DNA of 64,000 nt from Niallia sp. FSL W8-0635 (GTDB lineage: Bacteria; Bacillota; Bacilli; Bacillales; Cytobacillaceae): assembly GCF_038007965.1 (NCBI RefSeq), contig NZ_JBBOYD010000001.1, forward strand, positions 4,008,501 through 4,072,500, written 5' to 3'. The notes under the pieces are model-generated. The model ran no database searches. It worked only from the letters and a program-made list of their open reading frames with translations, and was not told the DNA's origin. Positions 19,631-62,551 of this stretch are shown here, piece by piece; positions within the stretch are counted from its first letter, which is position 1, and each line of letters begins with the position of its first letter. The position numbers and the translations under genes are program-made.

Positions 19631-19695
19631 TCCTCAGAGGGACGGTTCTACTGAGGACACGAAGGGAATCAGTAGAACCGTCCCCCCGCTTCCCT
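19631..19695. repeat. GGGACGGTTC repeat, imperfect long form
   Basis: The left half CAGAGGGACGGTTCTACTGA and the right half TCAGTAGAACCGTCCCCCCG face each other. The right half is read on the minus strand as the C-terminus and TGA stop of the glycosyltransferase gene. Confidence 0.85.
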
Positions 19696-20736
19696 CAACT
19701 CTCCCACTATCTCTTCTACTTCATTCTTAAACCCATTTTCCTTCTTCTCTTGCTTCTCACCTTGATACTGATATTTCTGCATTTCTTCCCACTCTATTGT
19801 TTTACCCAGTCCATGCTGGCGAATATAGTTAATCGTATGTTGGTCTTCCGTCATTCCTTCTCTATTCAAAATCAACAACGGAACATTATAGACAACTGCC
19901 TCGCTTATCGTTCCCCATCCTGCTTTTGTAATGACTAAATCACTCGCCGCGATATATGCTTGAGATTCCGTTTCCTCTATTGGAATGGAGAATACATTGT
20001 CTCTATCTACCTTTACATTCGACGATACGATAAACACACAGTTCTCACTTTCCCATAGAGGAAGCGATTCAACTTCTATTCCTTCTATCTTCATCCCTAA
20101 TCCAAAAAAGATAATGGTCTTCTTCCTAGTCGGATTAATCTGGTCAATAATACGCTCTACCATATCCTCCTGTACTTTGCGAGCGAAAAAAGGAAATAAT
20201 CGCTTTTCGCAAGGCCAATTGCTTTCCTGATTTCCAGCTAATAGAAAAAAACAGGACATTTTCGCGTAGGAACTTTTCCAAATCTCTAATCTTTTTTGGT
20301 CCAATAAGCTTTCATATGCCGTGTACCAGGTAAAGTTAGATATACCTATCGTAGGAATTCCTACTCTATCAGCAGCTTCCAATGGCAGTGGAGAAATATC
20401 TGTGATAATCAAATCCACTTTCGCCAGTTGGAAAAATGGAACCTCTGATAGAATCTTCTTCTCCCAATCCTCTACAAACCGATCAAATTCTTTCGCCAGC
20501 TTCTCCTTATCTGGCTCTAAGCTTCCCTCTTTTAAAAAATAGCCAACATCTGTGGCAATCTTTCGAAAGGAAACTTGATCATATGGAAGAGAATTGCGCA
20601 AAAAATCCATTGCAAAAGAATGGCTTATAATGACTCGATAGGAAGGTTCCTTTTCTAAAAGTTCACGAATAATCGCAATAGAACGAGCCGCATGCCCAAA
20701 TCCATAGTCAGAAATATAATAGGCGATTGTTTTCAT
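19669..20736 (-). CDS. GT-B glycosyltransferase (MurG/GT28-like) with repeat-encoded C-terminus
   Basis: A 355-residue protein of the GT-B fold. The N-terminal YYISDYGFGHAARS resembles the glycine-rich acceptor loop of MurG-like and MJ1255/VC2487-type transferases. The C-terminal donor-binding part has FFGLGM, DLVITKAGWGTISEA and a QHTINY segment. Donor and acceptor cannot be read from sequence. The last residues (REAGGRFY) and the TGA come from the palindromic repeat at 19631-19695, so the native C-terminus has been replaced or extended. The ATG at 20736 follows a plausible GGAG-like site. Confidence 0.82.
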   Translation of the reverse strand: MKTIAYYISDYGFGHAARSIAIIRELLEKEPSYRVIISHSFAMDFLRNSLPYDQVSFRKIATDVGYFLKEGSLEPDKEKLAKEFDRFVEDWEKKILSEVPFFQLAKVDLIITDISPLPLEAADRVGIPTIGISNFTWYTAYESLLDQKRLEIWKSSYAKMSCFFLLAGNQESNWPCEKRLFPFFARKVQEDMVERIIDQINPTRKKTIIFFGLGMKIEGIEVESLPLWESENCVFIVSSNVKVDRDNVFSIPIEETESQAYIAASDLVITKAGWGTISEAVVYNVPLLILNREGMTEDQHTINYIRQHGLGKTIEWEEMQKYQYQGEKQEKKENGFKNEVEEIVGELREAGGRFY

Positions 20737-20852
20737 TTCGATACTCCTTTATTAAGTCTCCTGCAAAAAGAAATCGAAGAAACCTATTCTTTTAATACAA
20801 CTATAAATTATTCCTATTTAAATGAAAACTACACTTATAAAACAGTAACCAA

Positions 20853-20890
20853 AGAAACGGTTCCCATAAGAACCGTCCCTCTATTTCCCT
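20853..20890. repeat. GGGACGGTTC repeat, short variant
   Basis: AGAAACGGTTCCCATAAGAA followed by CCGTCCCTCTATTTCCC. It abuts the amidohydrolase stop codon, which begins at 20890, and marks the 3' end of the long opp operon. Confidence 0.75.
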
Positions 20891-33867: not shown

Positions 33868-33881
33868 TCTCATACTCAAAA

Positions 33882-33914: not shown

Positions 33915-33935
33915 GCTTATCCTATATATTCCAAA

Positions 33936-49900: not shown

Positions 49901-49955
49901 CCACCATAACAAAGATGACAAAAGCCCTCCTTGTTATCCTCTTTTTTAAAGACAC
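43989..49955 (-). CDS. Giant wall-anchored lamin-tail-domain metallophosphoesterase (LPNTA sortase substrate)
   Basis: A 1988-residue surface protein. A signal peptide (about 8-35) is followed by a Glu/Thr-rich region (about 38-150). Three lamin-tail (LTD) domains follow, starting at PLLITELSPDS (about 160), PLLITELSPNS (about 455) and KLLVTEVVPDS (about 740). They are separated by Ig-like modules with DTEAPIITHEAI or DTEPPVISHDPI. More Ig-like modules cover about 930-1500. A calcineurin-like phosphoesterase (about 1528-1800) has metal ligands in SDTQYY, HTGDVVDE, GNHD, NFHEYL and GHYHDSE. Then come a fibronectin-like segment, a Pro/Gly/Glu linker, LPNTA near 1957, a membrane helix and RRTRKEA. 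LPNTA suggests a class D sortase. Start GTG after GGGAGG. The substrate (nucleotides, nucleic acid or phosphate esters) is unknown. Confidence 0.9.
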   Translation of the reverse strand: MSLKKRITRRAFVIFVMVVFFFSTYFPALPGLTTYAAEPTEPTGEKAEEKTHTEEDSSQEVSDTIVEEEKKVADEAKKEEGNTSLEEQSSPDSEQEELPKVSEQKEEPVTNEENQPRESEKTDVVKDEKTEPTEEAPNENEQQQVDNQQETVDYTKLPPLLITELSPDSKGTDNFEFIELYNNTNQPMDLNSYYFYYHYIGGSTADKIMSIPAATIAPQESIILWFNTKDLLLEDFNNHFSTSLTEQQVISFKGDFPGFANGGNRGIIVKNIEGQEVVSAAYLPSETDNTGLDVQYAFPTEGTEMEKQQVKASPTPGVLGEGQVPAEPLQVSPITEDTEAPIITHEAITTTKAGEAIAIEATIADNQKNPTATIYYQVESDTAFKAIEMKQDSANPQKFSASIPQEEVQGTIEYYLEATDGNLLAKTAIYTIELEKEEGAEPEQDTYSDRPLLITELSPNSIGGGTDYYEYFELYNNSNQALNLATYSFYYVYTDNSREPILFPLPATEIQSKEKLVFWFNNGNKTVEDFNKEYGTSLTSNELVMFTDTAFPGFANGGNRALEIRDAQGNVVISASYLGSENDNDGKVIHYQFPQEGTEMAKYKVLADPTPGSMEVDQVPTNVVELPEAPKDTEPPVISHDPIKTAKAFTAVPIEASVTDTVVANPIVTVFYKNSADESFKSLALNKDTNGKYSTTIPAADIDGEITYYLVASDGINESQTEAFSLSVEKSDIDFTKVPKLLVTEVVPDSANVGTADGYEYIEIYNNTDQAINFKDYKIQYRYNADPATDVVWPSIPDDVVIEPQKTLVFWIINGQNGEKTVADFNANYGTNLVENKEIVRIKSDGMANGSMRGLVIATNTKEEINVAYYNDEATQLDTAMNMGILYKFPEDGSTQSVKISTKTKPGTPGMVEANQVPTQPVHVEEDLVAPILTNATNVEEIHQMDDLTIRAKATDDKGIKSVVLYYRTNDQTDYEKVLLTVDPSDIEYYAAVLYAANFIAKESIEYYFVATDGQNEVTSEKYVITIKNDVNNEPIHLNVQDHDILSGNVILKAVSKEATADDVELSIDGKRVLEETYSSLESQAYLAVDISGLNMYFKNAIAMGEDIIHLLDQDNNSDWKTFTIPIDPNKLSIGENIITVRSGNKASPFQLEESEENRDDYNVRNVRLILADGTVIRDPQKANASQVFDMGDDGTYRPFEDFTFTLTEEQMKAKTYVWDTTTVSDGAYSIKATDKEEEVTAAIQVDNTAPVIKTNMKAEKEYKGAFTIEASAEDALAGVESIAVTLDNETISVPFDTASSQLAPGVHELKVVAVDKAGNKAESVIAFSVTNENPNKPELISPANNTATPVDGDPALKVRVTDPTEDSMDVHYYKGYKYEATDSNVQSFENASDTEPPVELVPAGEKALTAEDASAISTLDGKYLTTDSSTQFPYHRFEVELDPSIDEEDRVELVWNGKSLEGRKVSMYAWSMNENKWKLLTYKIAGAEDFALKADVQVNEYADKANKINVLIQDEIPSSPDDYDFTFVWMSDTQYYAESYPYIYKRQTEWIAEKQEELKIKYVLHTGDVVDEFDDEQQWIYADEYMRTLEDYKIPYGVLAGNHDVDQLSNDYSEFSKWFGEDRYKDQPHYGESYKDNRGHYDLISAGGNDFIMIYMGWGVNDEDMEWINSVLKQYPDRKAILNFHEYLLVSGNRSPIGEEIFQKVVEKNENVFLVLCGHYHDSETLISEIDDDQDGVADRKVYQMLGDYQGGPEGGQGYMKLLHFDQTNNRILVNTYSPYLDDYNFYDPAEYPLKDELVIDLDLSVQEKQVATDYFAVNVYTNEEIGNQENVASGDTAQVVWKNLEEGQAYDWYVVASDKYTGTAISDIWSFTKGQPSPEEPTKPGDEGGDGEGSEEPEPPTPSNPDGNNGNSGEGEEPPTPTPDNNIGNSGGNEPTTPSTTEPNKEKPTIQLPNTATANYTIMLIGLVLLVVGIVIVSFRRTRKEA

Positions 49956-50070
49956 AAGACCATTCCTCCCTAAAGCTGATTTACGTACACACTAGAATCA
50001 TAGATTTCTTATTTTAAGGAATATTTAAGCCACTATTAATAAACATGAAGTTTTGTTAAATATGTGTAAA

Positions 50071-50132
50071 GGGAAACAGGGGGACGGTTCTAGTGAGGAC
50101 TAGTCCTCACTAGAACCGTCCCCCTGTTTCCC
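50071..50132. repeat. Perfect 62-bp palindrome of the GGGACGGTTC family
   Basis: 31-bp arms GGGAAACAGGGGGACGGTTC... meeting at GAGGACT/AGTCCTC without mismatch or loop. It is placed between the divergent wall-anchored protein and PadR genes and is the best-preserved copy in the window. Confidence 0.93.
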
Positions 50133-50169
50133 CCTATTTGCTCAAAAATTTTTTAACATTTTACTTCAC

Positions 50170-50209
50170 CTGTCGTAGTATATATGGTAAAGTAAAATTA
50201 CTACGACAG
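50170..50209. promoter_or_regulatory. Candidate PadR operator
   Basis: CTGTCGTAGTA (50170-50180) and TACTACGACAG (50199-50209) are a perfect 11-bp inverted repeat with an 18-nt AT-rich spacer, 40 nt upstream of the PadR start. Autoregulation is likely. Confidence 0.7.
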
Positions 50210-50249
50210 TCATAGTATGATAAATGAAGTATCAGTGAGGAGGGATTCT

Positions 50250-50585
50250 GTGATAAGCAGTGATGTCATACGAGGATATAATGACACCATCATTCTTTTT
50301 TTCCTATTGGAAAAGGATTCTTATGGTTATGAGATCTCCAAAGATATAAGAACACGAACAAACGAAAAATACATTATTAAAGAAACAACCCTTTACTCAG
50401 CCTTTAGCCGATTGATTAAGAATAACTATATTAACTCCTATTACAAAGAAGGCGAATATGGAAAAAGAAGGACTTACTACACCATTACTGCAGAAGGAAG
50501 AAAGTATTATCAGGAAAAGTGCCAAGAATGGGCTATAACACAAGAAGTGATTAACCTATTTATTAAGGAGGGATATAATGAATAG
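50250..50585 (+). CDS. PadR-family transcriptional regulator
   Basis: A 111-residue winged-helix regulator: LLEKDSYGYEISKDIRT, TTLYSAFSRLIKNNYINSYY and GKRRTYYTITAEGRKYYQ are PadR hallmarks. The GTG at 50250 (MISSDVIRGYND) is chosen because GAGGAGGG lies 5 nt upstream and it matches the usual family N-terminus; an ATG at 50217 has no site. It overlaps the next gene by 8 nt, forming the common PadR plus membrane protein pair. Confidence 0.9.
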   Translation: MISSDVIRGYNDTIILFFLLEKDSYGYEISKDIRTRTNEKYIIKETTLYSAFSRLIKNNYINSYYKEGEYGKRRTYYTITAEGRKYYQEKCQEWAITQEVINLFIKEGYNE

Positions 50586-51549
50586 CATCATTAGTTATTT
50601 AGACAACGTCTTTGCTAATTTGCCGAAAACATCCGAAATGGAAAAGCTGAAACTAGAAATGCTTTCAAACATGGAGGATAAATATTATGAATTAAAAGAA
50701 GCAGGGAAATCAGAAAATGAAGCAATCGGGATTGTAATATCGGAATTTGGTAATATTGATGAACTTTTAAGCGAGTTGGACATTCCATTAAATGAAGAGA
50801 AACCATCAGAACGTCAACTTTCGGAGGAAGAAGTAAATCTTTTTTTTCAACTAACCTCAAAAGCAATGAATTTGATTGGAATTGGCGTGATGCTTTGCAT
50901 CCTTGGTTCCTCTATCTTAGTGCTCTTCTTAACGTTATATGATAATGGATTTCTAAACGGAATAGCAGAAAATACAGCTACATTAATTGGCGTTGCACAA
51001 TTACTTCTATTTGTAGCAATCGCAGTTAGTTTATTCATTTATAGTGGTCTGCTATTAGAGAAATATAAATTCATCGAAAAAAAGGGTAACTTTACGATTC
51101 CAATTCATTTGCTCAAAAAAATTGAGATGGCAAAAGAAGCTTATCAGCCAATCTTTTTTCGTTCCATTATTATCGGTGTTTCCCTATGCATCTTATCACC
51201 CGTTGTTTTATTAGTAACGATCGCAATCAATGAACAGGCAGTTACCTATGGTGTTTGTGTTCTACTACTTCTTATTGCCATTGCTACTTATGTTTTTATT
51301 GTGAATGGTGGAAAAATGGATGCTTACACAAAACTACTAAAGGAAGAATCCTATTCCATTGAAAAAAAGAAAGAAGAAAAAGTAATCGGCGCCTTCGCAG
51401 CAATCATCTGGCCACTCGCCACCGCCATTTTCTTATTCACCGGATTCGTGTACGGAAACTGGCATATAAATTGGATCATATTCCCAATAGCAGGACTACT
51501 AATGGCCATGTTCAGCGGAGCCTACACCATTATGAAAAAAGAAGAATAA
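50578..51549 (+). CDS. Membrane protein with N-terminal DUF1700-like/permease-prefix domain
   Basis: A 323-residue protein. Residues 1-75 form a helical cytoplasmic domain (KLKLEMLSNMEDKYYELKEAGKSENEA) as seen in PadR-linked proteins. About six hydrophobic segments follow between residues 95 and 320. The start overlaps padR after AAGGAGGG, so translation is coupled. These pairs are thought to respond to envelope stress; the function here is unknown. Confidence 0.8.
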   Translation: MNSIISYLDNVFANLPKTSEMEKLKLEMLSNMEDKYYELKEAGKSENEAIGIVISEFGNIDELLSELDIPLNEEKPSERQLSEEEVNLFFQLTSKAMNLIGIGVMLCILGSSILVLFLTLYDNGFLNGIAENTATLIGVAQLLLFVAIAVSLFIYSGLLLEKYKFIEKKGNFTIPIHLLKKIEMAKEAYQPIFFRSIIIGVSLCILSPVVLLVTIAINEQAVTYGVCVLLLLIAIATYVFIVNGGKMDAYTKLLKEESYSIEKKKEEKVIGAFAAIIWPLATAIFLFTGFVYGNWHINWIIFPIAGLLMAMFSGAYTIMKKEE

Positions 51550-51550
51550 A

Positions 51551-51607
51551 GGGAAACAGAGGGACGGTTCTTGTGAGGTCAAGTCCTCACAAGAACCGTC
51601 CCTCTGC
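51551..51607. repeat. GGGACGGTTC repeat, long palindrome
   Basis: 22-bp perfect arms (CAGAGGGACGGTTCTTGTGA...) around TCAAGT. It fills the gap between convergent genes, 1 nt after one stop codon and 5 nt before the other. Confidence 0.9.
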
Positions 51608-51612
51608 ACTCA

Positions 51613-52008
51613 TTATTTTGCTTTTTCATCTGTTTGATGAATACCGAATAAATTTCCTTCCGAATCTTTATAGTAGCCTTGCCATGCCATACTAGGTAGT
51701 GCGTGCTTAGGAAGTGCTACTGTTCCACCATTTTCAAGAATTTTTGCTTCTGTAGAATCATAGTCTTCCACCCCCATCGTACAAGCATACCCATTTACAG
51801 CCTGATTATTGTCCGAAAGAGGAACTGGTCGTTTAATTAAAGCACCATTAATTCCCATCTCGTGATTATCGCCAGTCACAGCCCCAAAATACGGCATGCC
51901 AGCATAATCGCTCCAATCTTCAAATTTCCAATCAAATACCTCTCCATAAAACGTTTTAGCGCGTTCCATGTTATCCACATGAATTTCAAAATGAATTGGT
52001 CTACCCAT
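51613..52008 (-). CDS. VOC-family (glyoxalase/bleomycin resistance-like) protein
   Basis: 131 residues with two beta-alpha-beta-beta-beta modules of the vicinal oxygen chelate fold. IHFEIHVDNMERAKTFYGEVFDW is module one, and KDSEGNLFGIHQ ends module two with the usual metal-position residues. Substrate unknown. ATG 52008 lies 9 nt after AGGAGG; the in-frame extension upstream is rejected. Confidence 0.87.
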   Translation of the reverse strand: MGRPIHFEIHVDNMERAKTFYGEVFDWKFEDWSDYAGMPYFGAVTGDNHEMGINGALIKRPVPLSDNNQAVNGYACTMGVEDYDSTEAKILENGGTVALPKHALPSMAWQGYYKDSEGNLFGIHQTDEKAK

Positions 52009-52109
52009 TTTATCCAACCTCCTATTTTCACGAATCTTCTGACTTATTTCTATCAAAAACATAGAATTCCTTCACCATTATTGTAAATATTAGATATATT
52101 TTATACGGT

Positions 52110-52171
52110 GGGAAGCAGGGGGACGGTTCTTGTTAGGTCAAGTCCTCACAAGAACCGTCCCCCTGCTTCCC
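52110..52171. repeat. GGGACGGTTC repeat, long palindrome
   Basis: GGGAAGCAGGGGGACGGTTC... with a near-perfect inverted right half; one mismatch in the inner arm (GTTAGG against CCTCAC). It lies between the divergent VOC and VanW-like genes. Confidence 0.88.
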
Positions 52172-52261
52172 CTGTTCCTACTCATTTTACAAAAAAATAC
52201 ATAAATCGAAAAAATAAACACATATTAAGGATAGCGGAGATTATTATGGAGGTTTGCATCG

Positions 52262-53140
52262 ATGAATTCCCATTTGTTACTCGGACTCATTTTATTTTTT
52301 CATACACTGATTGCACCCAGTAATTTTTTTAGTACGATTAAAAGTCAACCCTCACAACTAAATGATAAGGAACAAGACTTTTTATGGAAATCCCCTAGTT
52401 TGCCTGTTATTGATACAGAAGAATTTAATAAAGTAATGGATGGATTAGATAATAAGGTTTACATCGCACCAAAGGATGCCATCATTAATCCATACGGAAA
52501 TATCGTTCCAGAACAAGTCGGATATCGTTTACATCGTGTTAAATTTATTAGACAAATGTATGCTCATTATTTCAATGATACTTCCAGTAAACAAGAACTT
52601 CCCCTACAAGTTATTTATCCTAGAGTAGATAGTGAATTATTAGATAGTATTCGTAGAAAAAAAATCGGCAGATATATAACAGCCTTTAACAGTAATAACA
52701 AAGAACGAAGCATGAATATTTCGTTGGCTACAGAGGCGATTAATAATAGTGTTATTTTTCCAAAGGAACAATTCTCATTTAATCAGATTGTAGGAAAAAG
52801 AACCGTAGAAAAGGGATATTTACAAGCTCCCGTTATCATAAACGGAAAATTCTCTGAAGATATCGGCGGGGGCATTTGCCAAGTATCCTCCACCTTATTC
52901 AATGCGGTAGACAATGCTGGATTAAAGATCGTTCAACGGTATTCACACAGTAGAAAAATTCCTTATGTCCCTCCTAAGCGAGATGCAACCGTTAGTTGGG
53001 ATGGACCTGATTTCGTCTTTGAAAATACCTATGAAAGACCAGTACTCATCCAAGCTAAAATGCTAGGCAATCATTTACTCATCGAAATCTATTCAGCTGA
53101 AACAATTTCTTATCAGCCTAGAAATGTCCCATACCTTTAA
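52262..53140 (+). CDS. VanW-family protein, YoaR-like
   Basis: A 292-residue protein with an N-terminal hydrophobic export segment. A C-terminal VanW domain has FSFNQIVGKRTVEKGYLQAP, GGGICQVSSTLFNA and YSHSRKIPYVPPKRDATV. VanW proteins occur with vancomycin-resistance and peptidoglycan-related genes, but the activity is unknown. The ATG follows GGAGG. It stands alone between two repeat elements. Confidence 0.88.
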   Translation: MNSHLLLGLILFFHTLIAPSNFFSTIKSQPSQLNDKEQDFLWKSPSLPVIDTEEFNKVMDGLDNKVYIAPKDAIINPYGNIVPEQVGYRLHRVKFIRQMYAHYFNDTSSKQELPLQVIYPRVDSELLDSIRRKKIGRYITAFNSNNKERSMNISLATEAINNSVIFPKEQFSFNQIVGKRTVEKGYLQAPVIINGKFSEDIGGGICQVSSTLFNAVDNAGLKIVQRYSHSRKIPYVPPKRDATVSWDGPDFVFENTYERPVLIQAKMLGNHLLIEIYSAETISYQPRNVPYL

Positions 53141-53154
53141 ACACTTGGGCCAGA

Positions 53155-53215
53155 GGAAACAGGGGGACGGTTCTAGTGAGGTCAAGTCCTCACTAGAACC
53201 GTCCCCCTGTTTCCC
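53155..53215. repeat. GGGACGGTTC repeat, long palindrome
   Basis: GGAAACAGGGGGACGGTTCT... with inverted right half ending CTGTTTCCC; the centre is GAGGTCAAGTCCTC. Nearly identical to the 50071 copy. Lies between two tandem plus-strand genes. Confidence 0.9.
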
Positions 53216-53294
53216 TTGATTCCCTTTAAAATTGACAGGCAATGCTACTTGCCTTAAACTTCTAACCATTCTTACAGTGAAAGGATGTTATTGG

Positions 53295-53687
53295 ATGGAT
53301 CAGAAGTATACATCGACTCAATCCCAAAAGGAAACAGCAATCTCGTTTTTAAAGCTCGTAGCATCAACAAAAGTTCGCGAGGCCTTTCAGAACTACATAG
53401 GGTCAGACTTCCGCCACCACAATCCCTATTTTAATGGTGATGCTGATTCCTTAATGATCGCAATGGAAGAAAATGCCGTACGAAATCCTTATAAGAATTT
53501 AGAAATCAAGCTAGCTATCCAGGAGGAAGATAAAGTCGTGGTGTATTCCCACATAAAGCAGCATCCAGAAGACCTAGGCGGCGCAGTTGTACATATCTTT
53601 CGTTTCCAAAATGAGCAGATTATTGAATTATGGGATATCGGTCAACCGATACCTGAGGATTCTCCCAATGAGAATGGAATGTTCTAA
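53295..53687 (+). CDS. SnoaL-like/NTF2-fold protein
   Basis: A 130-residue alpha+beta cone protein. YIGSDFRHHNPYFNGDADSL, VVVYSHIKQ and VHIFRFQNEQIIELWDIGQPIPE match SnoaL-like polyketide cyclase/NTF2 domains found in many bacterial stress proteins. The ATG at 53295 follows AAAGGATG; the in-frame upstream extension lacks a site. Reaction unknown. Confidence 0.8.
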   Translation: MDQKYTSTQSQKETAISFLKLVASTKVREAFQNYIGSDFRHHNPYFNGDADSLMIAMEENAVRNPYKNLEIKLAIQEEDKVVVYSHIKQHPEDLGGAVVHIFRFQNEQIIELWDIGQPIPEDSPNENGMF

Positions 53688-53695
53688 AAACAAAA

Positions 53696-53718
53696 GGGAC
53701 GGTTCCCATATTTCTCTT
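53696..53718. repeat. GGGACGGTTC repeat fragment
   Basis: GGGACGGTTCCCATATTTCT, a truncated copy between convergent genes that touches the stop codon of the dioxygenase gene. Confidence 0.6.
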
Positions 53719-54700
53719 ACAAGTATTCTTTTTCAATTTTCAAGTTGCTGCGAACGGTATTGATTGGTCGAACTAGCTGCTCGATTTTTTCTCTGTTGGA
53801 TTCAAAGAATGGTGGTAAGGATAATTTTTCTCCTAGCGTTTCGTATGGCTCATCTCCCATGAAGCCTGGGCCGTCTGTTGCTAATTCAAATAGAATTTGT
53901 GGTGCTATATTTGAATAGAGAGAACCGAAATAGTATCGTTCTACAAATCCCGAATTCGCTAATTTAAAGCTACTCAAACGTTCTTGCCATTGATTTAATT
54001 CTGCCCGATCCTCGACACGGAAAGCAGCATGGTGTACAGTTCCAAATCCTTGTCTTGCCTGCGAAAGAATGGTATTGAATTCCACAATGACTTGCGCGCC
54101 ATTTCCTCCTTCTCCCATTTCAAATAGATGGAAGGATCCCTCCTGAGCAGCTTCCTTCATCAAGAATACCTTCTCTAAAACTTCCTTAAAATAATCCAGA
54201 TATGCAGTTCGTACAAATATTGGTCCTAACCCAGTGATTGCAAATTCCAGAGGAACTGGTCCATTCTGCCATGGCGTCCCTGCTGCAACCCCTTCATTCT
54301 GTTCATCTGAAATCAGTTGATATTGCTGATCATCAAAATCCACGAAAGACAATGTCTTTTTCCCAAACTGTTCTTGAATTCCTTTATGCTTCACTTCATA
54401 CTTATCAAAGCGCTTTACCCAATATTCAAGAGCAGCATCAGTCGGCACACGGAATGATGTTTTCGAAATTTCGTTCGTACCGTGCACGCCTTTTGGAATA
54501 CCTGGGAAATCAAAAAATGTCATGTCTGTACCGGGACTTCCTACATCATCAGTAAAGTACAAATGGTAAGTTTGAATATCATCTTGATTGACCGTTTTCT
54601 TTACTAATCGAAGCCCTAGAACATATGTGAAAAACTCATAGATTTTTTCTGCACTACTTGTAATTGCTGTAATATGATGAAGTCCTTTTAGCTCATTCAT
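53717..54700 (-). CDS. Ring-cleaving dioxygenase, MhqO/MhqA-like
   Basis: A 327-residue two-module VOC protein. Fe(II) ligands are expected at GLHHIT, GTVHHAAF and FELATDGPGF. Bacillus MhqO/MhqA proteins are induced by hydroquinones and catechols and confer resistance to them. A palindrome like the MhqR operator lies 22 bp upstream, supporting this assignment. The ATG follows AGGAAAAGGCGA. Likely monocistronic. Confidence 0.88.
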   Translation of the reverse strand: MNELKGLHHITAITSSAEKIYEFFTYVLGLRLVKKTVNQDDIQTYHLYFTDDVGSPGTDMTFFDFPGIPKGVHGTNEISKTSFRVPTDAALEYWVKRFDKYEVKHKGIQEQFGKKTLSFVDFDDQQYQLISDEQNEGVAAGTPWQNGPVPLEFAITGLGPIFVRTAYLDYFKEVLEKVFLMKEAAQEGSFHLFEMGEGGNGAQVIVEFNTILSQARQGFGTVHHAAFRVEDRAELNQWQERLSSFKLANSGFVERYYFGSLYSNIAPQILFELATDGPGFMGDEPYETLGEKLSLPPFFESNREKIEQLVRPINTVRSNLKIEKEYL

Positions 54701-54721
54701 TCGCCTTTTCCTCCTGAAAAT

Positions 54722-54739
54722 TATCTCGAAATTGAGATA
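54722..54739. promoter_or_regulatory. MhqR-like operator
   Basis: TATCTCGAAATTGAGATA, matching the TATCTCGAATTCGAGATA-type box bound by MhqR in Bacillus subtilis (recalled consensus). A weaker copy, TATCTTTAATTCGAAATA, lies about 30 bp further upstream. Confidence 0.75.
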
Positions 54740-54922
54740 TTTATATAAAAATTATTTTTAATTAATATATCTTTAATTCGAAATAATTTTAGCATCTAAT
54801 AGAATTTTCGTCAATAGGAAAGAAAAACAACCAATTGTAAATAAACATCCCATTTCTTTTCCCTCATACAGATAAAGCTATTTGCCAAACTTCCCTCTCC
54901 CTTTGTTCCATTCTTGCTCCTT

Positions 54923-55393
54923 CTATCTCCACATGTCCTTTTTATCTAAGTATCTTATTAACCCAAAGAATCCTCTTATGGTAAATAAAGTGAAATTTAC
55001 ACTTGCAAAAGTATGTAGCGGTGACCACTTCTTCCACTTAAATAATTTGCTGTTCTTCTCAAAGTACCACTGACCAAAGCTCATTGGAACGCTAAACACC
55101 AAACTTTTCAATAGTTTCTTTCCAAATCGGTCCCTCTCCGTCATTTTTACCCAAAGTACACTTAATAGAGGAAAAAATAACACATCATAAATGATATTTG
55201 TTTTAAAAATCTTCGGAAAAGGTCGCACTGGATAAGCAATTTTATTTGTCCCCACAACATAAGCATCTACTAAAGTTGCAAGAACACCTTTTGCGAAAAA
55301 TATTAAGAAATTCTCTCTTCTCTTACCTCTAAACAAAAATGGGATAAAAACCATACAACCAGCCGTTAATACACGCAATAATATTTTTTCCAT
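54923..55393 (-). CDS. Membrane protein, possibly CBO0543 family
   Basis: 156 residues with four hydrophobic segments, a conserved-looking YPVRPFPKIFK, IIYDVLFFPLLSVLW and a WYFEKNSKLFKWKKW region near the C-terminus. I think this resembles the CBO0543-type membrane proteins of Bacilli but cannot be sure. AGGAG precedes the ATG. Function unknown. Confidence 0.65.
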   Translation of the reverse strand: MEKILLRVLTAGCMVFIPFLFRGKRRENFLIFFAKGVLATLVDAYVVGTNKIAYPVRPFPKIFKTNIIYDVLFFPLLSVLWVKMTERDRFGKKLLKSLVFSVPMSFGQWYFEKNSKLFKWKKWSPLHTFASVNFTLFTIRGFFGLIRYLDKKDMWR

Positions 55394-55470
55394 AAATAGT
55401 CTCCTGTTTTCAACATTAAGATTCCTTTTTTTACCTTTCCCATTTCCACAAGATAATATTCGAAAAAAAA

Positions 55471-55515
55471 GACGGTTCTTGTGAGTCGAATGACCTCACA
55501 AGAACCGTCCCTCTG
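55471..55515. repeat. GGGACGGTTC repeat, 'GTGAGTCGAATGACC' subtype
   Basis: AAAAAAAGACGGTTCTTGTG then AGTCGAATGACC then CTCACAAGAACCGTCCCTCT. The left 45 nt are identical to the copy at 62.5 kb, defining a subfamily with a truncated left end. Lies 6 nt before the transporter stop. Confidence 0.85.
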
Positions 55516-55520
55516 TGCAC

Positions 55521-56888
55521 TTATGCAAGCTGTTTGCGGATATTTTCTTCGTTTCGCTCATATTTGGTGTAGTTTAGCATAATAAGAGCACCTATGATGA
55601 AGAAGATTGCTGGTAGCCAGGTAAAGCAGAATTTAATTGCTGCTAATGATGTAGCTGTTTGGCTTGCGTTTGCTACATATCCTGCTTGCCCCATAATTAT
55701 AGATGGAATAAAACTTCCTAATCCTGAACCAATTTTGATACAGAAGGAGCTTCCAATGGCAGTTAGGAATCCACTTGCTCGGATACCTGTTTTCCATTCT
55801 CCGTAATCGACGGTATCTGATAGCATCGCAAATGGCAATGTTACAGCAATCCCTGTACCAAGAGAAGCGACCACCCATCCGAAGATAATCATCGATATAC
55901 TGCTTCCAGCAAATGCGATAATAATTTGACCAAGAGCAGCAACAATAAAGCCAAGAATCTGCGTATGCGTTTTCAAGAATTTCTTAACGATAAATGGAAT
56001 GATTGTAATAGATACCATTTGGAAAATAACGAGTCCATTTAAAAGGGAAGCAAGATTTTTATGATCTAAATTATACTGAGCATAATAGATTACGGTTGCC
56101 GTTCTCGATGTATTGCCTAACCAATAAAAGATAAAGGCAAGCACCAACGTAATCCAAGGCCAATTTCCTTTCATTGCTCTGAAGCTTTCACGAATAGGAA
56201 TCGATTTGATGCTACTCGTATTAATTTCTCTTGTTCCAGAAAAAGCAAACAGTAATAGAGCAATGGCGATAACAGCGTAAATTCCTACTGTTATTTGAAA
56301 TCCAAGTTTATCATTTCCATTCCCAAAGAAAGCAACAAGTGGCAATGTAAAGGAAGCAGTAATTAAGTACCCAATCATTCCCCCATTACTTCTCCAAGAA
56401 TTTAATCGAACTCTTTCTGTAGAATTATTCGTTAAGTTCGGCAAGATTGCAGTAATCGGCGTTGCTACTCCTGTATAAACCATCCCAGCAACAATATACG
56501 TAATTAAAGCATAAACCACTTTCGCAGTAGGTGATAAATCAGGTGCTAAGAAGGTCAAAAATACGGTTAGCCCGAAAGGAATAGCTAGCCATAGCCAATA
56601 TGGACGATTCTTTCCCCATTTTGTATTGGTATGGTCGATAATTAATCCCCAAATCGGTGCATCCAATGCATCAAAAATTCGCGCAATTAGAAGAATAGTC
56701 CCCGTAGCAGCTACTGATATACCAAATACATCTGTATAGAAATACATGATAAAGCTAGTCATTGTACAGTACAGCAAATTCCCTGCTGTATCTGTACTTG
56801 CATAAGCCAACACTTTTTTTAAAGACATTTTTGATTCTTGGTCTTTAGGTATTTCTTCTTGTATATACTCCGCTCTATTTTCACTCAT
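55521..56888 (-). CDS. GPH-family sugar symporter
   Basis: A 455-residue transporter with twelve hydrophobic segments and the GPH loop HTNTKWGKNRPYW. It resembles XylP/UidP-like glycoside or hexuronide symporters. It follows the 797-residue enzyme gene by 15 nt and starts at ATG after AAAGGATC. It probably imports the product or substrate of that enzyme (inference). Confidence 0.87.
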   Translation of the reverse strand: MSENRAEYIQEEIPKDQESKMSLKKVLAYASTDTAGNLLYCTMTSFIMYFYTDVFGISVAATGTILLIARIFDALDAPIWGLIIDHTNTKWGKNRPYWLWLAIPFGLTVFLTFLAPDLSPTAKVVYALITYIVAGMVYTGVATPITAILPNLTNNSTERVRLNSWRSNGGMIGYLITASFTLPLVAFFGNGNDKLGFQITVGIYAVIAIALLLFAFSGTREINTSSIKSIPIRESFRAMKGNWPWITLVLAFIFYWLGNTSRTATVIYYAQYNLDHKNLASLLNGLVIFQMVSITIIPFIVKKFLKTHTQILGFIVAALGQIIIAFAGSSISMIIFGWVVASLGTGIAVTLPFAMLSDTVDYGEWKTGIRASGFLTAIGSSFCIKIGSGLGSFIPSIIMGQAGYVANASQTATSLAAIKFCFTWLPAIFFIIGALIMLNYTKYERNEENIRKQLA

Positions 56889-56903
56889 TATCTATGATCC
56901 TTT

Positions 56904-59297
56904 CTAATAGGAAATTAATTCTTTGCTTTTAAATTCACCATCAACGAACAATATTTGAGGCGTATACTTTCCTTTTTCTGAAACATAGTGTATATCTAGG
57001 TCGTAAAAATGATATTCCATTGGATATGGTGCATAGCTAGTAATGAGTAAGCCGTCTGGCGTTTCTTCCAGTGAACCATTGATTACAGCTATTTGTCCTT
57101 CTTCTTTATATAGATAAGTCTTTTTCCCAAATCCATCTAAATAGGCAACTAACTCTTCTCCCATATCCCAATCTGCCGTTTCCTCTTCTTTTGTAAATAA
57201 GCGGGTAAATATTCCGCCATCTCTATAAAAGGTGGATTGACCAAATCGATTTCTTGATAAATCTGGTCTGTTTACATGAGGCCCCGCAATACTATAGGTA
57301 GAAGCAGCCTCTCCACTTGCTAGCTTTGTATCCGTTGCTTTTGCATTTGTATCATAGCAATAAAGTATACCAACCGTTGCTCGATAGGCTGCCTTTAAAA
57401 ATCGAATATCCTTTAGCTTTTCGTATGCTTTAAGAGAAGCAGCTGCTGTAACGCCACCCCATAAGGAATGAATCATATAGGAAAGTGCTTCCCACCAGCG
57501 ATCAGGGCTTTGCGCACGGAAATCATTAGAGAATCCAATATTAGCAAGCACTAACTCGCCATATTTCTTCGCCTCTTCTAAATGTCCTGTAGTCGCTAAT
57601 GCTCCTGTCGCCGGACCAAATCCTGCATTATCATAAAAATGTTCTGTCACAGTCGCTTTATATTTTTCGCTGTCAGCAGATACCTTCACCGCTATTTGGG
57701 ACCATAAAGCTTGAATATGTTGATATTTTTCAAGAAGTCCTCGATTTTTCAATTCTGCTAATAGGTCATCAATATAGAGGAAAAATACCCCTAGCATTTG
57801 CGCCTCTTCTTTGCCTCTTTCATTGTCATGCAGTGCAGGATCTACTCTTAGGGAAAAGACATCTGCAGCCCAAGATAAATACGTATCAGGATGATGAAGC
57901 TTTAGTATCTCTTCATCGAACTGAGAAAGAAGGAAAAAAACGTGTGCAATATATTCAAAATCCATGCAGCGGTAAAACTCGCCATATAAATAAGCCGGTT
58001 TTGTAAAATCACCATTTATAAACCACTTTTGGCGAATATAATTTACACACGAAGCTTCTACTTTTTGAACTTCTTCTACAATCGTTTCCCGCAGCAAATT
58101 GTCTTTTAATACAAGACTTAGCTTTCCAAGAGATTCACCTTGATTGGAGATTGGCGAATAACTATAAGGCACAGGTCTTTCCGGTCCATTAAATAAAGTG
58201 TTACTAATATAATTCGAACGGTTTTCCATTATTTTCTGAATTGGCTCCATCACATTTAAAATAATGCTGTCAGAATACGTGTGATTCAATTCAATCGTAA
58301 TTTTATGCTCTCCTGGCGAATCGAAAGAAAGAGAAGCCTGATACTTCCTACCCTTTTGTTGAATAAAGGGTAGGATTGTGACCTTTTGCTTTTGCTCCTT
58401 ATCATCTAAATACTCCATATATGCATCTGTGCAAAACGCCTCACCAGGCAATTCAAACGAAAAATCATAGTGCTTGTTTACAATCGCCAATGGCTCAAAA
58501 TCAAAAATCGGATGTCCGTAGTTTTTGAGTCCATTCTCATAAAATGCTTCTTGATCGGCAAATGGCTCCAATGCATATTCCCATTCTTTTTCACCAGAAG
58601 CAGAAAGCGTTAATCCTGTCTTTTCATATATCCAATCAGCATTTTCAAAATTCTCTGGGTAGCCGCCAGCTAATACTAATTGATGAAATAATATTCCATC
58701 CAAGGAAGGCGAAACGCTTTCAAAAAATAAATTGCGATAAGCACAATATGTTCCTACTGAAAGGGTTCTTCCTTTCTTTTGATAGATTCCTAAGTGCGGT
58801 GCTAGATTGCTTCTGCGAACACATGCTAGTTTTGTAAAATCCCCTGAAATAGACGGATAGACCGCTGTAGAGTTGTTCGTCTGCACTTGATAATCATTAA
58901 TGCGAAACATCACATAGCTAACAGACGCCCATAGGTGAAAATTAGTAACGGTTAAGGCTTGGTCCGTTTGATTTTTCAAGTTAATATTCCACAATAGTTG
59001 GCCATCAGATTGCTCTAAGTCGTACTTCATACTTACTTTTACTAAAGGAAACGTATAGGTTAGCAGTATTGTTTTCTGTTCTTGTGTGATAATTGGCGTT
59101 ACATCTGTACTTGTATACTTTTCACCATTAACAGTAAGTGAAAAATTTCCAAATAATTTATCTTTTTCATCATATCCGTATTTTTCAAGATACTGAGAAT
59201 CAATAACCCAATTCATTTGATGAGCATCTTCATTCAGTACCAATTTCGCTAAATTTCCACACGGAGAAATTTCCAAATGGAATTGCTTATTATCCAA
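56904..59297 (-). CDS. Large putative glycan-active enzyme, DUF5695-like
   Basis: A 797-residue cytoplasmic protein without a signal peptide. The first about 300 residues look like a beta-sandwich. The last about 400 are helical and rich in aromatic residues (MDFEYIAHVFFLLSQF, DRWWEALSYMIHSLWGG, AGPHVNRPD, YRDGGIF), as in six-hairpin glycosidases and lyases. I believe it resembles DUF5695 proteins but cannot name the catalytic residues. The neighbouring GPH transporter and divergent AraC regulator point to sugar metabolism. Start is TTG at 59297 with GGAGGAGAATGTA upstream. A cre-like site lies in the 5' region. Confidence 0.7.
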   Translation of the reverse strand: MDNKQFHLEISPCGNLAKLVLNEDAHQMNWVIDSQYLEKYGYDEKDKLFGNFSLTVNGEKYTSTDVTPIITQEQKTILLTYTFPLVKVSMKYDLEQSDGQLLWNINLKNQTDQALTVTNFHLWASVSYVMFRINDYQVQTNNSTAVYPSISGDFTKLACVRRSNLAPHLGIYQKKGRTLSVGTYCAYRNLFFESVSPSLDGILFHQLVLAGGYPENFENADWIYEKTGLTLSASGEKEWEYALEPFADQEAFYENGLKNYGHPIFDFEPLAIVNKHYDFSFELPGEAFCTDAYMEYLDDKEQKQKVTILPFIQQKGRKYQASLSFDSPGEHKITIELNHTYSDSIILNVMEPIQKIMENRSNYISNTLFNGPERPVPYSYSPISNQGESLGKLSLVLKDNLLRETIVEEVQKVEASCVNYIRQKWFINGDFTKPAYLYGEFYRCMDFEYIAHVFFLLSQFDEEILKLHHPDTYLSWAADVFSLRVDPALHDNERGKEEAQMLGVFFLYIDDLLAELKNRGLLEKYQHIQALWSQIAVKVSADSEKYKATVTEHFYDNAGFGPATGALATTGHLEEAKKYGELVLANIGFSNDFRAQSPDRWWEALSYMIHSLWGGVTAAASLKAYEKLKDIRFLKAAYRATVGILYCYDTNAKATDTKLASGEAASTYSIAGPHVNRPDLSRNRFGQSTFYRDGGIFTRLFTKEEETADWDMGEELVAYLDGFGKKTYLYKEEGQIAVINGSLEETPDGLLITSYAPYPMEYHFYDLDIHYVSEKGKYTPQILFVDGEFKSKELISY

Positions 59298-59362
59298 TAC
59301 ATTCTCCTCCTTTTATTAGAATGATTCTAGCTAAAGTAGAGGTTAAGCAGTATAATCAAATC

Positions 59363-59376
59363 AGAAAACGTTTTCT
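59363..59376. promoter_or_regulatory. cre-like CcpA site
   Basis: AGAAAACGTTTTCT, a perfect palindrome with the cre core, in the divergent region between the glycan enzyme and the AraC gene. Suggests catabolite repression of the sugar cluster. Confidence 0.65.
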
Positions 59377-59488
59377 TTTTTAAAATATATCAGAGTTCTT
59401 TATAAAATTATATATAGGATTCAAGTCAAAATTTAAGATATTTCACACGGACATTTTAAAAAAAGGAAGGTAAAACGAGGTGTATTAG

Positions 59489-60373
59489 ATGGAAATAATA
59501 TCGATTGCTGTTCCTCCATTTCCTATTTTCATTGAAGGAAATCTTACAAAATATGAAAAAAAAACATGGCATCCTGATCGAAATGACTTAGCGTATTTTG
59601 ATATTATTCTAGTAAAAGAAGGACGGCTTTTCTTAACCGAGGAAGGAAGAGAATTTACGATAAATAAGAATGAAATGCTGGTATTACAGCCATTAAAGCA
59701 TCACTACCCTTTTAAGCCGACAGACGAATATACAGAATTTTATTGGCTCCATTTCTATACAAATAGCTATTATACAGAGGCGAAGGAGCCGACTAACTTA
59801 ACATCCTCCATCCCTATTCCGTCCTTGCATTATCATAATCATAGCTATACGATTCATTTGCAAAAGAAAGGGATATTGGTCGACTATGAGGAAATTTATC
59901 AAAAAATAGACCAGCTATTATTAACAACCACTAATGAAAATAAGGATCTATCATTTTGGGATATCCAGCTAAGCTTTTTCTCTTTGATTAATCTATTAGA
60001 ATCGCAGGGCATCGCAAAGGATACTAGCTATGTTATGGCAGAAAAGGTAGTACAATTTTTAAGAGAAAATTACCACCAGCCCATTACAAACGATACATTA
60101 ACCGAGCGTTTCAACATTCACGAAAATACGATTGCTAAATATATGAAAAAATTCTATAAAGTTACCGCATTAGAATATTTAAATTCTTATCGGTTAGAGC
60201 AAGCGAGAATCTTACTATTAAAAACAGATGACTCGATTCAAACAATCGCAGAAAAATGCGGCTATGCCTATGGGCAATACTTCTCGAGCGTTTTCAAAAA
60301 GAAATATAGCATTTCTCCATTAAACTATCGAAAAAAGCATTTAGAAAGGGAAGCGAAGGGACGGTTCTTGTGA
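59489..60373 (+). CDS. AraC-family regulator with repeat-encoded C-terminus
   Basis: A 294-residue regulator. The N-terminal cupin-like ligand domain (LAYFDIILVKEGRLFLTEEG, MLVLQPLKHHYPF) is followed by a double helix-turn-helix (about 190-285) with the AraC signature QTIAEKCGYAYGQYFSSVFKKKYSISPLNYRK. It is divergent from the glycan enzyme and transporter genes and so probably activates them. The last residues EAKGRFL and the TGA derive from the repeat at 60348. ATG after CGAGGTG. Confidence 0.88.
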   Translation: MEIISIAVPPFPIFIEGNLTKYEKKTWHPDRNDLAYFDIILVKEGRLFLTEEGREFTINKNEMLVLQPLKHHYPFKPTDEYTEFYWLHFYTNSYYTEAKEPTNLTSSIPIPSLHYHNHSYTIHLQKKGILVDYEEIYQKIDQLLLTTTNENKDLSFWDIQLSFFSLINLLESQGIAKDTSYVMAEKVVQFLRENYHQPITNDTLTERFNIHENTIAKYMKKFYKVTALEYLNSYRLEQARILLLKTDDSIQTIAEKCGYAYGQYFSSVFKKKYSISPLNYRKKHLEREAKGRFL

Positions 60374-60419
60374 GGACATGACCTCACAAGAACCGTCCCT
60401 CTGCGCCCCCTTGCTTCCC
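60348..60419. repeat. GGGACGGTTC repeat, long palindrome
   Basis: GGGAAGCGAAGGGACGGTTC..., inner arms GTGAGG/CCTCAC around ACATGA, and an extended right end CTGCGCCCCCTTGCTTCCC. It encodes the end of the AraC gene and touches the stop of the convergent 609-residue gene. Confidence 0.9.
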
Positions 60420-62248
60420 TATAGCAACAACTGTTTTGCCAATTTACGTTCTTCTTTATCTTTTGTAATGGTGTTTATCATTTTAATACTTTGTTGGATT
60501 TCTGGTTGTTGTCTAAAGGTTGGTGACCATTCTGTCAGTATATTCAGGGCGTGCCAGCGTAGGTTTTCATTTTCTGATTCGAGCGCTGCTTGAATTAATG
60601 AAACTCCTATGCCCTCGAATGGGTATAAATCTTGCATGATAATTTCTAAACAATTCTGTTCGTCTATCGATAAGCTTGATAAAGAAAAGCTCGATTGTGC
60701 AAAGGCACAGAGATCTTTAATAGACTGTTGCTCTTTCGTTTCCATGATAGAGAAAAATAGCACACTGTTTGTTGGTTCCTTCTTTAGTAATTCAGATAAT
60801 TGTGTGGTGATATCCAATTGATAGAATCGTGCAATCTCAATCGCTTGGAAATCAACTTGCTCACCTGCTTGTAAAATATTCATCGCAAGCTTTGACCATT
60901 CAGGATTATTTATGAATGGTTGAACTGCTTCTTGAAGTGCCGTTCGTTCATGCTGTTTCCATTGCTCATTCAATCGACCTTCCCAAATTTCTTCCTCTGC
61001 GTTAATATATTCACTTATTTTAATAATCGGATAGAAATCCTCCAACGTTTCGCAGTGGGTATGGGCATGGTGAAGGAAACGAGTCAGCACAATTCCAGCA
61101 TAAGGATAGTTGTCAATGCCATCTGGATTCGACTCATCTAATAACCCCACAATAATCGTAGCTGCTCCAGTGTATAGTTCCTTCGAAATTTTCTTTTCAT
61201 AGAGCGCTACATCAAGCTCTCCCTTTGTAGCACAACGAAGAGCGATAAAATCAATAAGTCTTCTATTTTCACAGCCTTTTGTTAACAGCCAATATTTCAT
61301 TTCAGGCGTTTTTGCTTCCACTTGCTCAATGGCGGTCATTTTTCCCAGCCCTTGAACAGACTGAACTAGTTTCCATATTTGATCATTTACTCCCTTCCCT
61401 CCACTTCTTATTGCGAAAATGGCATATGCCGTAAATTCATCGTGTAAGCCAATTGTATATAAAAGCTCTTGATATTCCTCACAATTAGTAAAGCCGAGTA
61501 CAAGAATCGCGAACTTGACAACATCTCTATGCGCAGCATGCTCAAGAAGCCATAATGCCTCTTGCTGTAGAACACGCTCATCAAATGCGAGTTGTCCTAA
61601 TTCCTGAATGATCTCATCTCGATAGATGGCAATATGGTCAAATATAATTTGATCATATGTCGCTTTTCTTGCTTTTACAGTAGGATTTTCCAGTTGATCT
61701 TTAAAAAGCTTCATAAGCTTGCTCACAAAAAATGGCGTCTTTGGTTCATTGATAATTAAATCAAAAAGGCCAGGATTTAGCCTCGGCTTATCTGTACCAA
61801 AGAAGTAGTCATCATCCGGTAAGTATTCATCTACTATTCTATTATTTTCTTGCACCTGTTTTTGTATAAAAGGAATGATTTTTTCCTTATGCTCCCATGG
61901 AAGAAATTCAAGCTTTTCTGATTCATTCATAATCGTCTCATTATCCATTTTAATGATACAGTTAAGACTTATATAACCACCAATTTTGACAGAAACTTTA
62001 TGAGTTTTTCCATCTTTCAAAGTAAGAATGCCTGATAATCTAATGTAAGGAAGAAGATGTGAAAAGATAGATTTCCGCTTGTTCGCATCAACTATCACCC
62101 CATCAATGATAAGCATTTCCTCCTTCATTTTATTAACCACTTCTATACAATGCCCTTTATAATCAATCTTCCAACCCTTATGGACTTCTTTTTCAATATC
62201 CTTTTTCAAGTTTTGCATTTCATGTTTAAATTCATCTCGAAACCCCAT
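60419..62248 (-). CDS. Unrecognised 609-residue protein with HEAT-like helical repeats
   Basis: A soluble protein with no signal peptide or membrane helix. The first about 150 residues are beta-rich (IDYKGHCIEVVNKMKEEMLIID). The rest is almost wholly alpha-helical with repeated pairs such as QQEALWLLEHAAHRDVVKFA and NLRWHALNILTEWSP, suggesting HEAT/ARM-type repeats. I recognise no catalytic motif. GGGAGG precedes the ATG. It stands alone between a repeat element and the AraR-like gene; function unknown. Confidence 0.7.
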   Translation of the reverse strand: MGFRDEFKHEMQNLKKDIEKEVHKGWKIDYKGHCIEVVNKMKEEMLIIDGVIVDANKRKSIFSHLLPYIRLSGILTLKDGKTHKVSVKIGGYISLNCIIKMDNETIMNESEKLEFLPWEHKEKIIPFIQKQVQENNRIVDEYLPDDDYFFGTDKPRLNPGLFDLIINEPKTPFFVSKLMKLFKDQLENPTVKARKATYDQIIFDHIAIYRDEIIQELGQLAFDERVLQQEALWLLEHAAHRDVVKFAILVLGFTNCEEYQELLYTIGLHDEFTAYAIFAIRSGGKGVNDQIWKLVQSVQGLGKMTAIEQVEAKTPEMKYWLLTKGCENRRLIDFIALRCATKGELDVALYEKKISKELYTGAATIIVGLLDESNPDGIDNYPYAGIVLTRFLHHAHTHCETLEDFYPIIKISEYINAEEEIWEGRLNEQWKQHERTALQEAVQPFINNPEWSKLAMNILQAGEQVDFQAIEIARFYQLDITTQLSELLKKEPTNSVLFFSIMETKEQQSIKDLCAFAQSSFSLSSLSIDEQNCLEIIMQDLYPFEGIGVSLIQAALESENENLRWHALNILTEWSPTFRQQPEIQQSIKMINTITKDKEERKLAKQLLL

Positions 62249-62494
62249 ACTAGCCTCCCTTTTTCTCCTTTTTCTATTAAAATTGGATAGTATAGTATAT
62301 TAATCCATTTTCTACTATTTTCATCCTTTCTTCTATTAAATACTATCTTTTGCCTAGAGGAAAGATTATTAAGTTAAAAATAAGCAGATAAATAGAAAAA
62401 AATCGAAATACATTGCTTCCCCGTCCCAGTGTTTGTTTTGTAGAGGAAAAAGCAGGAACTCCCTCAGCTCCCGGATGCCTGTCGGAAAGCATAT

Positions 62495-62551
62495 CAAAAA
62501 AGACGGTTCTTGTGAGTCGAATGACCTCACAAGAACCGTCCCTCTGCTTCC
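62495..62551. repeat. GGGACGGTTC repeat, 'GTGAGTCGAATGACC' subtype
   Basis: Same subtype as the 55471 copy. The right half, read on the minus strand, encodes EAEGRFL and the TGA stop of the AraR-like gene. Confidence 0.88.

Follow-up and report, generated by a model that had tools for sequence, protein, structure and literature searches.

A probable REP/REPIN-type repeat at gene 3' ends in Niallia and the similar C-terminal tails of unrelated proteins that end within it

In a 64,000-nt stretch of the Niallia sp. FSL W8-0635 genome (contig NZ_JBBOYD010000001.1, positions 4,008,501 to 4,072,500; hereafter the window), four unrelated genes stop within copies of one short palindromic repeat, and their products end in nearly the same residues, EAxGRF(L/Y). 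Bertels and Rainey, in 2011, reportedly described REPINs, which are built from repetitive extragenic palindromes (REPs), together with RAYT (REP-associated tyrosine transposase) proteins, and Liang, Rudd and Deutscher are said to have found, in 2015, that E. coli REPs lie near stop codons. In the sections of the literature compared here, to which all our statements on cited papers refer, REPs are found near rayt genes and directly after rayt stops (Nunvar 2010, PMC2817692). Other REPs lie within 20 bp of the 3' ends of open reading frames (ORFs), where their termini give TAG stops and the REPs code for COOH-terminal residues (Di Nocera 2013, PMC3733652). QMITE elements of Coxiella inserted at 3' ends add C-terminal residues or only a stop (PMC5896051). 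Given these REP and QMITE precedents, the phenomenon as such, namely 3'-end placement, repeat-supplied stops and COOH-terminal residues, is already known for REPs and miniature inverted-repeat transposable elements elsewhere. New here are the repeat family, the RAYT that probably serves it and the history of the tails across several species.

The Niallia repeat resembles REPs, bacterial interspersed mosaic elements and REPINs with their RAYTs in that its short inverted palindromes are intergenic and lie beside a Y1 transposase gene; indeed, the stop of that gene is 5 nt from a core, comparable to the REPs right after rayt stops. It differs in its host, a member of the Bacillales, in its core, GGGACGGTTCT, which is not among the REPs described in the compared sections of PMC2817692, and in its RAYT-like protein, which falls just under the NCBIfam cut-off. 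The GTAG/CGTC-tagged REPs of PMC3733652, in the compared sections of which Firmicutes go unmentioned, have an unpaired tag at one end, which the Niallia repeat, on inspection, does not: CGTC (other strand) is interior to the arm, within the doublet stem, and GTAG occurs only opposite TTCTAC variants. In addition, CGTC REPs are said there to be without a transposase, whereas the Niallia repeat has a likely RAYT. QMITE, compared by description only, is longer and has terminal inverted and direct repeats, but its enhC case, in which between strains the stop lies just ahead of the element (PMC5896051), is similar to the AraR-like gene of one Niallia relative described below. Rickettsia palindromic elements are also palindromic repeats translated within unrelated proteins, but they are in frame inside ORFs (PMC3733652), whereas none of the 58 Niallia elements is inside a gene. 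The compared sections of two Geobacillus genome papers (PMC9693769, PMC4847372) tabulate RayT genes (COG1943) and leave palindromes unmentioned. A Bacillales repeat-RAYT pairing was not met in those of PMC3733652, PMC2817692, PMC6006769 and PMC8049555, nor in titles and abstract openings of related literature, a comparison outside which the RAYT group paper of Bertels et al. 2017 falls.

The core is present in 84 exact copies, 42 per strand, in the 5.14-Mb genome (G000 below, with C1 for its contig coordinates), while the reversed control gave 0 and 1. Sixty of these core arms lie at 3.90-4.17 Mb, the region that holds both the window and the RAYT-like gene (3.98 Mb). When up to one mismatch is allowed, the window and the stretches around the exact copies hold 91 arms, which form 58 elements; of these, 28 are '+-' pairs, that is, inverted doublets with the core facing inwards from both sides, none is a '-+' pair, 27 are single and 3 have three arms or two like arms. 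The doublets fold as long hairpins: when seven stretches were folded as DNA, the five of doublet type gave z from -3.8 to -12.1 and the two with a single arm gave -3.2 and -1.6. An Rfam scan of the window returned no matches.

The ends and codons of the four window genes (Table 1) are exactly as an initial annotation of this DNA had claimed, and Pfam places the proteins in four unrelated families (the AraR-like regulator, for example, has GntR and LacI-type sensor domains). It should be noted that genes here are simply ORFs of at least 80 or at least 100 aa, and no gene finder was used. At the 84 exact arms of G000, the GRF frame supplies the end of seven genes, three of which lie outside the window. 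A scan of C-termini, as the annotation had proposed, was carried out on ORFs of at least 100 aa in six frames, with the window and 14 further stretches as the own-genome set, and bore the claim out: GRF or GRFx ends were found in 7 of 198 own-genome ORFs, every one at a repeat, in 1 of 296 in G001, in 2 of 267 in G008 and in none of 700 from 78 loci of other genera. One of the G008 ORFs encodes the eighth tailed protein of the genus, an 853-aa protein (L232, - strand; GGDEF-EAL type by eye) that ends FLTEAEGRFL at a repeat and whose G009 orthologue matched through the last residue. Tails also seem to arise outside the genus, as a 505-aa ORF of G114 (L190, - strand; another family) runs through the repeat and ends EAGGRFFCFQKPHSL.

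The annotation had further held that the four genes use one frame of the repeat while the other two frames read on. The shared frame is real, but it is merely the sole frame with an early stop. Another frame is indeed used by a 367-aa gene at C1:4597480, in which the TAA ends 26 nt after the core start; since no ORF of at least 100 aa in the own-genome stretches stops 46-600 nt past a core, the other frames were not seen reading far. The gene-end counts refer to the 91 arms described above and not to the whole genome; as they are confined to near-exact arms, tails at more diverged copies would be missed. Stops close to a core were found for 49 genes: 39 terminate ahead of it, 29 of those by 4-12 nt, and thus carry no tail, 2 share the first core base, 7 use the GRF frame and 1 uses another. 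Eight genes therefore read through the core, and 7 of them do so in the GRF frame (binomial p 0.003 against 1/3). Chance frame choice was considered for this excess, and removal of long extensions fits it as well as anything.

Among 13 genomes of the genus, the repeat pattern was counted 70 times in G000, 18 in G001, 7 in G009, 5 in G012, 4 in G008, once in G003 and not at all in the other seven. Judged by its AraR-like protein, G000 is close to Bacillus sp. 522_BSPC (93%) and Niallia circulans NBRC 13626 (88%). For this protein, 80 of 190 loci were kept, 79 of them with an ORF at the place read; two of these, L112 and L104, appear not to be independent of G012 and G009. L104, which is in the clade, alone has both the tail and a core at the gene end, while none of the 77 proteins placed outside the clade by name and by 79-86% identity ends in GRF. 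These 77 end a few residues after GETV or a variant of it (e.g., GETVKELEVQ, GETVKEIEVE). Within the clade, the protein ends EAEGRFL in G000, G009 and G001 and EDAEGRFW in G008, where the remainder of the palindrome has decayed, and in G012 a TAG stands directly ahead of the decayed repeat and the tail is lost. For the AraC-like regulator, all four full-length orthologues end HMG(R/K)EK and carry no tail; the G012 copy, a frameshifted fragment, ends KKEAKRRF. As orthologues without the repeat have no tail (AraR-like 0/77, AraC 0/4), it was the repeat that supplied it, which upholds the annotation's view of a repeat of mobile type as the source of the tails. The opposite view, that the tail is a conserved protein motif and its likeness to the repeat secondary, could draw on the sharing of the tail between sister species. 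However, the matching DNA runs on beyond the stop codons as the same palindrome, the repeat follows 39 genes untranslated and the 77 AraR-like orthologues outside the clade lack the tail, and we give this view next to no credence. As a separate observation, in a different genus, L123 (Bacillus timonensis) has a related-looking palindrome, GGAACCGTCCCTACGGTTCC, directly downstream of its AraR-like gene, which may have inserted at this gene end independently.

The remaining tails show varied histories. The Gfo/Idh orthologue ends REAEERF in G009 and QRINN in G006. No GRF end is found in the two glycosyltransferase orthologues compared (G009, G001), among which this tail is therefore private to G000; the G009 end looks like an eroded repeat by eye, yet its 9/16 match to the consensus is no better than background. 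The PhoD-like protein ends QEKGRFL in G009, FLKK in G001 and FLRK in G008. The MocR-like protein has a tail or stump in all four sister genomes (KREARRRFY in G001, KIQAKGQFY in G009, VAKG in G008, VAEG in G012) and nothing tail-like in five more distant loci. The VanZ-like protein ends NGRFF in G009, KGRF in G012 and KGMF in G008 and has no tail in G001; as the arms match the consensus at 13, 11, 10 and 9 of 16 positions in G009, G012, G008 and G001, respectively, only the G009 case is clear. Even the other-frame tail at C1:4597480, GKQRDGSNEVN, is common to G001 as GKQRDGSTEVN. In total, one or more sister genomes retain a recognisable form of 6 of the 7 GRF tails, in several cases with the remaining palindrome decayed. 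The captures are not fresh; they are mostly common to several species and have been eroded or cut off in some lines.

The annotation's idea that the tail is a shared functional tag or affects stability has nothing behind it but a weak, non-independent hint that the translated arm is better kept. For this comparison, pairs below 60% identity or with an alignment ending more than 16 residues before the query end were dropped. For genes tailed in G000 (20 gene-genome pairs from relatives), the sense arm matches the consensus at a median of 13/16 and the antisense arm at 10/16 (Wilcoxon p 0.02), whereas in the 52 untailed pairs both medians are 11 (p 0.95). This should be read with the fact that pairs from one gene are not independent and that the direct comparison of tailed with untailed pairs is not significant (p 0.30 for sense arms and p 0.30 for antisense arms); mere upkeep of a reading frame with its stop would account for the better-kept sense arm just as well as selection acting on the peptide would. 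A recruited C-terminal tag acting in degradation, localisation or interaction and spread with the repeat would be consistent with this difference, and with the survival of NGRFF (G009) and KGRF (G012) in the VanZ-like protein though the remaining palindrome is unrecognisable. Nonetheless, we consider such a tag highly improbable: the tailed proteins serve unrelated functions, no tail is present in 39 of the 49 genes next to a repeat, a new stop has cut the AraR-like tail in G012, only stumps are left of the MocR-like tail in G008 and G012, and the VanZ-like arm of G012 matches at just 11/16 against a background of about 8. The broader proposal that the translated arm is now under selection, with tails preserved as the other parts of the element erode, RAYT and REPIN as a recurring source of C-termini genus-wide and some tails, such as the AraR-like and VanZ-like ones, that matter, also appears distinctly unlikely. 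The tail would rather be close to neutral.

The elements sit mainly at gene 3' ends. Of the 58 elements, 21 are convergent, 28 co-directional and 9 divergent in setting, and the distance from the core edge to the flanking gene end has a median of 11 nt for 3' ends (n=70) and 106 nt for 5' ends (n=46). Among the co-directional elements, 24 of 28 are nearer the 3' end (p 2e-4). When the 49 elements that face a 3' end are considered (a different set from the 49 genes near a core), 34 overlap it or lie no more than 15 nt away, whereas 5000 runs of random placement in the same gaps gave 17.4 on average and never more than 25. In a wider sample of 40 loci, six of them from the genus (G000, G001, G003, G008, G009, G012), which together hold 71 arms, an inward ORF is present at 38 arms, and its stop lies 5-29 nt before the core in 22 cases, further away in 12 and past the core in 4, so that the 3'-end peak is broader in that sample. 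The four past-core cases are the AraR-like tail of G009, the 505-aa and a 356-aa ORF of G114 and a 126-aa ORF of G330; the three that are not AraR-like use GRF or other frames.

Such placement, together with the strong hairpins, would also be expected if the repeat were kept as a transcription terminator or another RNA element of 3' ends and the tails were accidents of position. In line with this, T runs follow the outer arm of two palindromes (62496-62546 and 55465-55515) that lie 7 kb apart, are identical over 51 nt and appear terminator-like by eye, and 8 of the 21 terminator-like rows of a scan of 49900-63800 fall on repeat doublets, with 8.1 rows overall expected from shuffles. However, in most copies no T run directly follows the stem, and the two palindromes in which one does are absent from the rows of the scan. 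In addition, 9 of the 58 elements have divergent neighbours, and all 10 of the transposase genes are flanked by the repeat. Termination at some sites would, moreover, leave the spread unexplained, and we regard this explanation as unlikely.

The transposase in question is a 264-aa Y1_Tnp protein encoded at C1:3980316-3981110 with repeats on both sides. It matches PF01797 (Y1_Tnp) with 55.3 bits (cut-off 23), bears the HUH sequence ...DNHVHL... and matches NCBIfam NF047646 (REP_Tyr_transpos, REP-associated tyrosine transposase) with an E-value of 2.7e-21. By eye, its YIHQNPVQAG has one deviation from the NP(L/V)(R/K)xG motif that lies beside the catalytic tyrosine in RAYTs (PMC2817692). In a survey of 35 genomes, 10, including G000, have full-length homologues with at least 52% identity, and two more have homologues at 42-44%. 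Arms are present on both sides of the gene in all 10, with the nearest 173-729 nt upstream (within 350 nt in 8 of 10) and 5-222 nt downstream, whereas 0 of the 10 other RAYT-like genes read, both 42-44% ones included, have arms in their loci. The 10 genomes with the gene hold 70, 120, 70, 132, 57, 78, 4, 55, 23 and 115 repeats (median 70), compared with a median of 2 (range 0-48) in the other 25 (Mann-Whitney p 3e-5). A strict 21-mer search across the order found the repeat in 5 of 397 genomes, including G000, but is too strict to gauge spread; with a looser pattern, 25 of the 35 chosen genomes contain it. On this sequence evidence, the gene at C1:3980316-3981110 is likely to be the transposase of the repeat. 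At a second RAYT-like gene of G000 (C1:4169193-4169738), one arm lies about 0.75 kb away on one side. This gene and those at C1:3762995-3763756 and C1:4132059-4132619 adjoin, by eye, other short palindromic motifs (GGGACAAGGAACCTG type, GGTGCCAGGCACC and GGTGTCAGACACC), which suggests one repeat family per RAYT paralogue.

We thus favour, with a probability of about 0.9, the reading that these are REP/REPIN-type doublets which were moved by a RAYT-like Y1 (HUH) transposase, settled at gene 3' ends and became the source of the tails. Under this reading, the transposase would mobilise inverted-doublet palindromes with the core, and copies would settle at gene 3' ends, usually with the stop codon abutting the outer edge of the element. 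Loss of the original stop at the junction would then let translation continue into the arm. The palindromic form of the element presents one and the same sense sequence to any gene that runs in from outside, and as only one frame of that sequence has an early stop (GAA GCA GAG GGA CGG TTC TTG TGA), unrelated proteins would come to share the EAxGRF(L/Y) end, about 6-8 residues long. Entry in the other frames would give longer extensions, presumably rare or purged. Once gained, tails may be inherited, decayed by substitution or removed by a new stop just ahead.

Several points weigh against this reading and need to be considered with it. The NF047646 score, 76 bits, is just below the cut-off of 80. 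The 35 genomes were not a random sample, several having been chosen for the repeat, for a Y1 gene or for a genus shared with a repeat-bearer. Flanking is looser at 2 of the 10 RAYT loci (upstream arm 621 and 729 nt off), G114 and G169 have 48 and 32 copies with no full-length RAYT, and G245 has a full-length RAYT yet only 4 copies. A covarying stem-loop within the single unit is unsupported, as pairing at 7 or more of the 9 positions is seen in 26 of the 84 units, compared with 32.8 in shuffles; we therefore say REP/REPIN-type and claim no membership of a named REP class. Finally, no clean empty site was found for one recent insertion, and the genes that border the RAYT unit are separated by 2 kb in G001 and by 19 kb in G008. 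With this in mind, a REPIN-type repeat of the Bacillales is paired here with its likely transposase, and nearly the same short peptide on eight unrelated proteins of one genus (seven in G000, one in G008) amounts to a replicated natural experiment. Since orthologues that lack the tail are at hand in near relatives, it can be measured what new C-termini cost and what becomes of them.

Table 1. Tailed genes, repeat elements and neighbouring genes in the window (window coordinates) and elsewhere in the genome (C1).
Feature	Position	Strand	Description
Glycosyltransferase gene	19669-20736	-	C-terminus ...LREAGGRFY-stop; codons TTC TAC TGA; stop inside repeat
Gfo/Idh oxidoreductase gene	32951-33859	+	C-terminus ...VREAEGRF-stop; codons TTC TAA; stop inside repeat
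AraC-family regulator gene	59489-60373	+	C-terminus ...EREAKGRFL-stop; codons TTC TTG TGA; stop inside repeat
AraR-like regulator gene	62527-63651	-	C-terminus ...TEAEGRFL-stop; codons TTC TTG TGA; stop inside repeat
VanZ-like protein, 171 aa	C1:3904859		GRF-frame end at repeat
PhoD-like protein, 688 aa	C1:4078433		GRF-frame end at repeat; weak PhoD match, 27.5 bits (cut-off 27)
MocR-like GntR/aminotransferase regulator, 487 aa	C1:4594931		GRF-frame end at repeat
LTD/metallophosphatase surface protein gene	43989-49955	-	ends ...RKEA TAG; stop probably native
Single repeat arm	43979-43989	-	at stop of 43989-49955
Repeat doublet	19639-19684		at glycosyltransferase 3' end; core arms 19639 + and 19674 -
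Two repeat arms	33847-33956		33847 + and 33946 -; between convergent 32951-33859 and 33966-35057
Repeat doublet	60358-60399		between convergent 59489-60373 and 60419-62248
Repeat palindrome	62496-62546	-	at AraR-like 3' end; outer arm ends in T run (AGAACCGTCTTTTTT)
Repeat palindrome	55465-55515	-	after 55521-56888; outer arm ends in T run
Repeat arm	18399-18409	+	just after stop of 17029-18387; no tail
Perfect repeat doublet	50081-50122		divergent intergenic region
Repeat doublet	51561-51602		between convergent 50578-51549 and 51613-52062; stops 11 and 10 nt from cores
Repeat doublet	52120-52161		divergent region
Repeat doublet	53164-53205		after VanW-like gene 52262-53140

A fifth window gene, that of the LTD/metallophosphatase surface protein, had been said in the annotation to take its TAG stop from a repeat copy, which is not what the comparison indicates. 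Only one base is in common, the G of the TAG being the first G of the core, and the orthologues stop at the same place (KEA TAG in G001, REI TAG in G008) with no recognisable core downstream (best match 7/16 in both, background 8). As these two relatives share the TAG position without a recognisable repeat, we take the stop to be probably native, with the repeat lying directly against it; erasure of the repeat in both G001 and G008 is not the reading that we favour.

Two further observations concern other ORFs of the window. The longest-ORF start of 7982-9625 falls inside a repeat doublet (9573-9637), and the true start is probably further downstream. The ORF at 10114-12201 contains two 206-nt direct repeats that are 73% alike (10124-10572).

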